Part shown: positions 4,034 to 36,756 of the stretch, in pieces | How positions within the stretch are numbered: the first letter of the stretch is position 1 | Layout: the number at the start of each line of letters is the position of its first letter | From: Actinomycetota bacterium | GTDB taxonomy: Bacteria; Actinomycetota; Acidimicrobiia; Acidimicrobiales; Ilumatobacteraceae | NCBI GenBank assembly: GCA_009702045.1 | Contig: WLIV01000022.1 | Location: 1 to 56,618 of the forward strand | Direction of reading: 5' to 3' | Length of the DNA: 56,618 bases | Notes under the pieces: model-generated | Database searches by the model: none | Told to the model about the DNA's origin: nothing | What the model saw: only the letters and a program-made list of their open reading frames with translations | Made by a program: the position numbers and the translations under genes

Positions 4034-5425
4034 GTGTACCGCATGTCCGGCACGCATTCCCGTGAGCAACTTGAGCAGCTGATCCGCGAGGGTGCCATCG
4101 ACACCGTGCTGATGGTGTTCCCCGACCTGCAAGGTCGCCTTGTGGGGAAGCGCACGACCGGTCGGTTCTTTCTGCAGAACGTGGCTGACGCAGGCACGGA
4201 GAACTGCGACTATCTGATCGCCTGCGACATCGACAACAACCCGGTGCCGGGGTATCGGTTCACCAGTTACGAGCAGGGGTACGGCGACATGCTGGCCACA
4301 GCCGACTGGAACACCGTGCGCGTCATCCCGTGGGTGGAGAAGACCGCAATGATCATGTGCGATCTGGTCAATGTGAACACCCACGAACTGATCGATGTCG
4401 CTCCGCGTAGCGTGCTGCAGCGTCAGGTGGACGCGGCTGCGGCGATGGGCTTCTTGCCGATGGTGGCCAGTGAGATCGAGTTCTTCCTGTTCAAGGACAC
4501 GTACGACGAAGCGGCCGAAAAGGGCTACCGCGATCTACAGCCGCACTCGCCATGGGTGCAGGACTACCACATCCTGCAGACCACGAAGGACGAGTATGTG
4601 TTGGGCGCGATTCGCCGAAATCTGGAGGCGGCCGGCGTTCCGGTGGAGTTCAGCAAAGGTGAGGCCGGTAAGGGCCAGCACGAGATCAACCTCGACTACA
4701 CGACCGCGGTGGAGATGGCCGACCGCAACAGCATCTACAAGCTGGCAGCCAAAGAAATCGCCCACTTCGCCGGTCGCTCGATCAGTTTCATGGCCAAACC
4801 AGACTTCGCCGACACCGGCTCGTCGTGCCACATTCACTCCAGTCTGTGGTCGCTCGACGGAACGACGGCGGTGTTCGACGGGCATGCGGATGGGCATCAC
4901 GGCCAGTACGGCATGAGCGAGACGTTCCAGCACTACCTCGCCGGGCTCATCGCCACGGCACAGGAGTTCAGCCTGTTGTGGGCCCCCACGATCAACAGTT
5001 ACAAGCGGTTCCAGCCGGGGTCATGGGCGCCCACCGGTATCGGCTGGGGTGTCGACAACCGTACGCTCGGATTCCGCAAGGTCGGTCACGGCCAGGGCAC
5101 CCGCGTGGAGTGCCGCATTCCCGGGGCCGACGCCAACAGCTACTTCGCGTTCGCGGGAACGCTGGCTGGTGGGCTGTACGGCATCAAGAACCAACTCGAA
5201 CTGGGCGCTCCGTTCGTCGGCAACGGCTACGACGCCCCGGAGATTCCGCGCATCCCATGGAGCATCGTCGACGCGATCAACGCGTGGGAGCGCAGCGACG
5301 TCGCCCGCGAGGCATTCGGCGACGACGTACACCACCACATCCTCACGATGGCCAAGGCCGAATGGCAGGCCTTCAACCAGAGCGTCACCGACTGGGAACT
5401 GCGCCGCTACTGGGAGCGCATCTAG
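4034..5425 (+). CDS. Glutamine synthetase family protein (GlnA/PuuA-like gamma-glutamyl ligase)
   Basis: ATP-dependent ligase joining glutamate to ammonia or an amine; 463 aa, the usual size for GSI-type and PuuA-like enzymes. Visible landmarks are GRLVGKR near residue 35, ASEIEFFLF near 145 (metal-binding glutamate), GKGQHEINLDY near 210, SCHIHSSLW near 263 and an arginine-rich ATP region RFQPGSWAPTGIGWG near 328. The family includes gamma-glutamylputrescine and other gamma-glutamylamide synthetases; an amine substrate fits the amine-related genes downstream, but this is inference. Start uncertain: GTG 4034 lies 7 nt after a GGGGG run, while ATG 4043 gives a more typical MSGTHSREQLEQL start. 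It overlaps the convergent EEP gene by 4 nt (CTAG). Confidence 0.88.
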   Translation: MYRMSGTHSREQLEQLIREGAIDTVLMVFPDLQGRLVGKRTTGRFFLQNVADAGTENCDYLIACDIDNNPVPGYRFTSYEQGYGDMLATADWNTVRVIPWVEKTAMIMCDLVNVNTHELIDVAPRSVLQRQVDAAAAMGFLPMVASEIEFFLFKDTYDEAAEKGYRDLQPHSPWVQDYHILQTTKDEYVLGAIRRNLEAAGVPVEFSKGEAGKGQHEINLDYTTAVEMADRNSIYKLAAKEIAHFAGRSISFMAKPDFADTGSSCHIHSSLWSLDGTTAVFDGHADGHHGQYGMSETFQHYLAGLIATAQEFSLLWAPTINSYKRFQPGSWAPTGIGWGVDNRTLGFRKVGHGQGTRVECRIPGADANSYFAFAGTLAGGLYGIKNQLELGAPFVGNGYDAPEIPRIPWSIVDAINAWERSDVAREAFGDDVHHHILTMAKAEWQAFNQSVTDWELRRYWERI

Positions 5426-36201: not shown

Positions 36202-36235
36202 CGGTCTTCGCCGCCACCTAGGCGCCTCTGTCGCT

Positions 36236-36263
36236 CGTCGGCCACGGGAGCCCGTGGCCGACG
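36236..36263. terminator. Strong hairpin terminator after LLM gene
   Basis: CGTCGGCCACGGG (36236-36248) pairs perfectly with CCCGTGGCCGACG (36251-36263) around a 2-nt loop, 34 nt after the LLM stop. It can act in both directions. Confidence 0.75.
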
Positions 36264-36281
36264 TGGGACACAAACGGGATC

Positions 36282-36310
36282 GGGTGCCTCAGCGGCCGGA
36301 GAGGAACTTC
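36282..36310. repeat. Left copy of 29-bp direct repeat (putative att)
   Basis: Identical over 29 bp to 36728-36756, which is the 3' end of the amidohydrolase gene with its stop codon and 7 nt beyond. The identity ends sharply at both sides. Confidence 0.8.
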
Positions 36311-36323
36311 GCGACAGGAAGCG

Positions 36324-36497
36324 CTAGGCCGGCTGGACGTGGAACGAGTCGAGCGCGTCGGCGGGGATGCCGAGCGTTCCGTCTTCGAGCTTCACTCGCG
36401 GTAGTCGCCGCTCGTACATCGCATGTACGACGACACGGGTAGCGACGCCGAGCCGTTGTGCGGCTTCGGCGGGGAGCAGCACTTCATGCTCGGTCAT
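36324..36497 (-). CDS. Small excisionase-like helix-turn-helix protein
   Basis: 57 aa. LLPAEAAQRLGVATR (helix-turn-helix) followed by VVVHAMYERRLPRVKLEDG (wing with Arg-Leu-Pro) and LGIPADALDSF matches the MerR-like excisionase domain family. Such proteins bend DNA at att sites or act as small regulators. The strong AAGGAGG ribosome binding site about 7 nt before ATG 36497 supports expression. Start overlaps the stop of the preceding small ORF (ATGA). Its stop lies 13 nt from the direct repeat. Confidence 0.75.
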   Translation of the reverse strand: MTEHEVLLPAEAAQRLGVATRVVVHAMYERRLPRVKLEDGTLGIPADALDSFHVQPA

Positions 36498-36658
36498 TGC
36501 ACGCCTCCTTCGTCGAAGCCCAACTTACCGTGGAGCATGCGGATGACGGTCGCAGGGTCGTCGAATGGAGTGCGATCGCTCATGCAGGTCAGCTTGAAGG
36601 GCGGGTGTGACGGAGTTTCCAGGTAACGCCGAATGCCCATTCCGGATCGGTCACTCAC
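36494..36658 (-). CDS. Short ORF upstream of the excisionase-like gene, unknown
   Basis: 54 aa if started at GTG 36658 (MSDRSGMGIRRYLETPSH...), or 29 aa from the internal ATG 36581 region (MSDRTPFDDPATVIRML). It ends in an ATGA overlap with the excisionase-like gene, the best evidence that it is translated. No family recognised. It may be the tail of a larger gene lost by deletion. Confidence 0.4.
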   Translation of the reverse strand: MSDRSGMGIRRYLETPSHPPFKLTCMSDRTPFDDPATVIRMLHGKLGFDEGGVQ

Positions 36659-36703
36659 GCTTGAAAACTGAATGAGGCGGAATGGGGCACACACGTACCC
36701 CGA

Positions 36704-36723
36704 GGCGGTTCCTGGGAACCGCC
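36704..36723. terminator. Hairpin terminator after amidohydrolase gene
   Basis: GGCGGTTCC (36704-36712) pairs with GGAACCGCC (36715-36723) around TG, 11 nt after the amidohydrolase stop on the minus strand. It lies just inside the inserted segment. Confidence 0.6.
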
Positions 36724-36727
36724 CCCA

Positions 36728-36756
36728 GGGTGCCTCAGCGGCCGGAGAGGAACTTC
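36728..36756. repeat. Right copy of 29-bp direct repeat (putative att)
   Basis: Contains the last codons (LKFLSGR, stop) of the amidohydrolase gene and 7 nt beyond; identical to 36282-36310. Confidence 0.8.

Follow-up and report, generated by a model that had tools for sequence, protein, structure and literature searches.

The window analysed here, a stretch of 56,618 nucleotides, is contig C15 of genome G000 (Ilumatobacteraceae; 99.45% complete). A 29-bp sequence, GGGTGCCTCAGCGGCCGGAGAGGAACTTC, occurs in it as an exact repeat at positions 36282-36310 (R1) and 36728-36756 (R2), with a start-to-start distance of 446 bp. R2 is the original 3' end of an amidohydrolase gene (PF04909, E 6.8e-23) and comprises, on the minus strand, the last 19 sense nucleotides, the stop codon TGA (36735-36737) and 7 downstream nucleotides; R1 is an extra copy of this gene end and adjoins a terminator-like inverted repeat (about 36229-36271) of the convergent luciferase-like gene. 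The copies enclose a gene for a 57-amino-acid helix-turn-helix (HTH) protein (gene B) with an AGGAGG ribosome binding site, and a coupled short open reading frame (gene A). Repeat, distance and enclosed genes had been described in an earlier sequence-only reading, and are confirmed with the same positions. The complete order is flank, R1, the unit formed by genes A and B (A+B), one end of a MITE-like repeat, a hairpin, R2, and the amidohydrolase gene. As a control, related amidohydrolase loci were searched for the gene-end 29-mer over 1.5 kb beyond the gene (52 of 80 loci tried, four of which were dropped for too little downstream DNA); the best match at the 48 tested loci was 20/29, compared with 29/29 in the window.

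Genes and repeats at the locus

Gene B (36324-36497, minus strand) was tentatively assigned as an excisionase-type HTH protein by family profiles and alignment with relatives; its ribosome binding site (36504-36509, minus strand) lies six nucleotides before the ATG. The window protein alone gave weak matches to HTH_17 (E 0.041) and to the excisionase family TIGR01764 (E 0.036), both below the curated cut-offs, and all eight aligned gene B members match HTH families at E ≤ 1, with best values of 1.2e-5 and 2e-6 (the latter for TIGR01764). The earlier designation as excisionase-like is weakly supported for the family, but not above cut-off for the window protein itself. Compared with its orthologue in G004, gene B shows 16 synonymous differences and three in amino-acid-changing codons, which indicates past selection on the protein. 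A single-sequence structure model reached a pLDDT of 65, too poor for a fold search, and a profile search against solved structures gave no relevant match (best E 0.38). An origin of gene B from a phage or plasmid was considered and rejected, since no relative was found in the viral, phage and plasmid collections searched, one of these searches reaching close relatives only. The HTH protein is probably cargo, with at most a putative action on this locus.

Gene A (36494-36583, minus strand; 29 amino acids from its ATG) overlaps the start of gene B (ATGA) and is shortened in comparison with relatives; 39 codons of the 68-amino-acid version in G005 are missing in frame. A longer reading frame (36494-36694) is possible from an in-frame GTG start.

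Three hairpin-forming stretches are present at the locus (36229-36271, z -4.7; 36636-36691, z -3.1; 36695-36735, z -3.2); a single hairpin had been described between the copies, but the count at the locus is three. The hairpin beside R2, GGCGGTTCCTGGGAACCGCC (36704-36723), is terminator-like, with near-identical copies on contigs C55, C23, C26 and C12 of G000, and most likely represents either a widespread terminator or a short repeat. The sequence GCCCGTGGCCGACGTGGGACACAAACGGG (36250-36278), which follows the luciferase-like gene, is closely matched at C3:27832 and C4:15357.

The MITE-like end occupies 36643-36692, with its terminal repeat at 36668-36689. As in MITEs, the terminal inverted repeat (TGCCC.ATTCC.CCTC.TTCAG) occurs in several copies and is paired in G014; unlike in MITEs, the window shows one recognisable end only, and the A+B unit lies outside the MITE-like repeat. 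The terminal-repeat pattern was found in three of 15 genomes of the genus, and the reversed-pattern control gave none. A further MITE-like terminal repeat, on contig C42 of G000 (about 1618-1660 of that locus), is closely followed by CTGCCGCTCG, which is similar to a cassette junction.

The locus and the A+B unit in relatives

The window locus was compared with 100 relatives. In G009, both flanks are 95-96% identical and the block (about 36283-36703) is absent; in G014, both flanks match at 84-87% with different DNA between them. R2 is kept with 27/29 identities in G009 and 24/29 in G014. The sequence-only reading would have been contradicted by two copies and an HTH gene in all relatives; G009 and G014 have neither, with no second gene-end copy (best 15/29 within 600 bp on that side; R1 is absent from the same place) and no match to the gene B HTH at E ≤ 0.1. 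The order in G009 is flank, hairpin and a single gene-end copy, and the hairpin is the same as that beside R2 in the window. Since the hairpin adjoins the single copy in G009, it is R2 that has long stood next to the hairpin, and R1 belongs to the extra DNA. The empty site expected of an integrative element, one repeat copy joined to both outer flanks, is not what G009 shows: it lacks the block and has one gene-end copy, but the hairpin separates this copy from the outer flank. Recombining R1 with R2 would remove the hairpin, so that neither excision nor a naive site of a repeat-bounded element gives the arrangement of G009. The comparison supports the block as an insertion/deletion polymorphism that is absent from G009.

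In G014, the corresponding intergenic position is occupied by a complete MITE-like repeat, with 217 bp between its two ends; the one end kept in the window matches it in a core of 28 out of 30 positions. This suggests that the MITE-like repeat may be ancestral and that G009 may have lost DNA, a suggestion weakened by the matched core being the mobile repeat's own terminal sequence.

A gene B match at E < 1e-15 was returned for G000 itself and for seven of the other 99 genomes, and the A+B orthologues (69-95% identity) are those of G004, G005, G006, G013, G031, G065 and G035; partial or distant gene B matches include G003, G001 and G097, and the remaining matches up to E 0.1 are weak. The surroundings of A+B differ among the relatives. 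In the window, the unit aligned with the seven relatives' loci (36311-36638, minus strand) has GGGCATTCGG as its 5' end and CTGTCG as its 3' end (CTGCCG in relatives); homology runs from 36638 to CTGTCG at 36312-36317, with R1 directly after. It spans GGGCATTCGG to CTGCCG in G004, G005, G006 and G013, and is less exact in G031. Exact flanking repeats of at least 16 nucleotides were absent around the unit at the seven other loci. Strong junction sites of the kind described below adjoin the unit at four of these seven loci (46.6-54.8 bits) and a weak, partial site (17 bits) at one; none was found at the units of G065 and G035. In G004 (contig C182, 7382-7750 of the locus), a tRNA-Pro gene precedes the unit and its junction site by about 240 bp. 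Integration at tRNA genes was discarded, with this one tRNA-Pro near the G004 unit and none in the window.

Rows of cassettes with a common junction site

In G005, the A+B unit is followed by a site of about 58 bp that is repeated between short open reading frames. A sequence model built from eight such sites gave best E-values below 1e-7 in 11 of 15 genomes of the genus and, family-wide under stricter filters (E ≤ 1e-6), in six of 61 genomes, representing two of 27 genera. At E ≤ 0.01, 111 sites were found in 38 loci, which were chosen because they hold sites. All 12 of these preselected loci with at least three sites (74 sites) show a single site orientation and thus form one-orientation arrays of short genes with a recurrent site, an integron-like feature. 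The gaps between sites have a median of 535 bp (62 gaps); the longest reading frame has the site's orientation in 46 gaps and the opposite orientation in 16, and a same-strand reading frame of at least 60 amino acids starts within 60 nucleotides of the site in 37 of the 62. At the other end, 29 of 43 site-oriented longest reading frames of at least 60 amino acids end between 9 nucleotides inside and 25 nucleotides before the next site. Of the 78 near-full sites, 48 contain the motif TGGACA-17-CANT, and a start codon follows at a short distance; together these features would fit a leaderless promoter. The conserved stretch 5' of gene A in the window (36590-36640; GTCACACCC, then CANGCT) resembles a promoter of another type.

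No full junction site was found in the window (no model match at E ≤ 0.1). Six cassette ends were aligned with their homologues. In four of them, similarity is lost within the site close to CTGCCG, where the window unit also ends: three stop at CTGCCG or a variant within the site and one begins at the half-site CAGAnCTGCCGAT; another stops 18 nucleotides before the site, and the remaining end gave an unclear break point. G000 itself carries a small row on contig C23, in which one site is full and the others are half-sites; it shares a 3,031-bp flank with G009 at 96% identity, after which the content differs, the G009 contig ending about 0.8 kb later. The row (4050-4230 of that locus) begins right after a reading frame ending RLVYLVDGDDVVVLQARYHYG, a putative gene for a toxin resembling the YoeB/RelE type. 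A search of three array loci against Rfam gave no family over threshold. A dif/Xer reading of the junction sites seems unlikely on inspection, the conserved halves lying at distances that differ by one base.

Two papers on integrons (PMC8618304, PMC9024848) describe features that are matched here: short genes lined up in similar orientation, with a sequence that recurs at their junctions, as in integron arrays and clusters lacking an integrase (CALIN); cassettes found again in other surroundings; and a single cassette away from any row, comparable to off-target cassettes. Unlike in integrons, the junction site here contains the promoter-like motif TGGACA-17-CANT (in the 48 of 78 sites given above). 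The integron integrase IntI (TIGR02249) was not found over the 265-bit cut-off in any of 41 genomes; weak matches, as general tyrosine recombinases, occur in all 41, and 14 of 14 control genomes were likewise below cut-off.

The ends of attC sites are RYYYAAC and GTTRRRY. In the 78 near-full sites, GTTRRRY was found in none, RYYYAAC in one, and both together in none. Hairpin folding of the same sites gave mean z-values of -0.44 (top strand) and -0.35 (bottom strand), with z < -2 in four and eight of 78, respectively. The outer arms of the site consensus look complementary, yet RNAalifold predicted four pairs with no two-sided change. Complementarity of a cassette's start to its own end (53 consecutive pairs) was 5.28/12, compared with 5.46 within the same site (85 sites) and 5.34 at random; in a paired comparison (n=50), own-end complementarity was higher in 20, lower in 21 and equal in nine (p 0.72). 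Junction sites as attC-like hairpins, as the consensus arms had suggested, find no support in these complementarity, end-motif and folding tests. For all their resemblance to integron arrays, the rows fail the IntI, attC-end, folding and complementarity tests. In the titles and abstract openings of literature on integrons in Acidimicrobiia and their kin, no such arrays are described. One large survey reports complete integrons as lacking in the Actinobacteria phylum (PMC9024848), and another source lists Actinobacteriota among the phyla with integrons (PMC8618304).

Tyrosine recombinases (PF00589) are encoded at two loci in G000, on contigs C13 and C12, which are read as the housekeeping XerC and XerD; the genome contains no PF00239 recombinase, for which the only match across six genomes was in G014. 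G014 has five PF00589 loci, none on the row-holding contigs (C24, C33, C30, C3 and C20), and one of them, on C29, is 92 kb from a single site. No recombinase tied to the cassette rows was found in these genomes, and no integrase within the block of the window.

Possible origins of the extra block

The A+B unit is read here as a passenger gene cassette that came to lie alone and off-target beside a MITE-like end, with 29 bp copied during insertion or repair, a reading to which we give about an even chance. A+B would belong to the kind of cassette kept by relatives in one-orientation rows, would have arrived by the process that moves such cassettes, and would have been placed off-target, downstream of the amidohydrolase gene and beside the end of the MITE-like repeat; R1 would have been copied from the adjacent gene end in the course of insertion or repair, and would not be an att site, and gene A would have been shortened at this locus. 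The same two unit ends are found in different contexts, rows exist in the genus and in G000, and the block is absent from G009. Cassette movement does not explain the exact 29-bp copy, and the origin of R1 is the weakest part of this reading; also against it are the lack of a full junction site in the window and of any site at the G065 and G035 units, and the lack of a recombinase tied to the rows. A strong rival, which we regard as possible though not probable, is a multi-step rearrangement without a cassette enzyme, in which template switching during break repair joined the MITE end, a copied A+B and a copy of the 29-bp gene end. Three abutting segments of different origin, the exact coincidence of the end of R1 with the end of the DNA absent from G009, and a short shared GGGCA at the join of MITE and cassette (by inspection) are all consistent with such a course; it is weakened by both ends of the copied segment being unit ends in other genomes.

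A tandem duplication of the gene end, after which the hairpin next to the first copy was lost and A+B entered between the copies, would explain why the sequence left of R1 resembles the flank of G009 fused to the gene end minus the hairpin; however, three separate events are required and the duplicated part is just 29 bp. No supporting relative, carrying either one copy that lacks the hairpin or R1 in the absence of a cassette, was found among three syntenic genomes. We consider this course improbable. The sequence-only reading had proposed a minimal integrative element, with R1 and R2 as att sites, gene B as excisionase and a tyrosine integrase acting in trans. An exact repeat located at the 3' end of a gene is indeed a feature of tyrosine-recombinase integrative elements with xis, and the putative excisionase-type HTH may be another; unlike in these elements, no integrase lies beside the block, the order in G009 does not fit, and the unit elsewhere has no exact repeats around it. 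The att assignment is not upheld, since G009 keeps the hairpin and gene end together without R1 and the seven other A+B loci have no exact flanking repeats; nor is an integrase in trans, since no dedicated candidate was found in G000 (its PF00589 loci, two in number, are both interpreted as housekeeping Xer, with no PF00239 match and no IntI over cut-off). The element would moreover have had to bring a hairpin while another was lost beside R1, and we judge it very unlikely.

Returning to the cassette reading, its wider form is put forward tentatively. The genus and a sister genus may possess a non-integron capture system in which single-gene cassettes are gained and shuffled by a putative recombinase. 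Each cassette would begin with a leaderless promoter and end in GCnCAGAnCTGCCG, and could also insert off-target where intergenic DNA is rich in hairpins, as at the MITE end in the window. Since the window offers a single cassette whose ends are defined, and a close to identical relative lacks it, the junction is testable. If the rows are real mobile cassettes, actinobacteria of the Acidimicrobiia type would collect small genes in an integron-like way.
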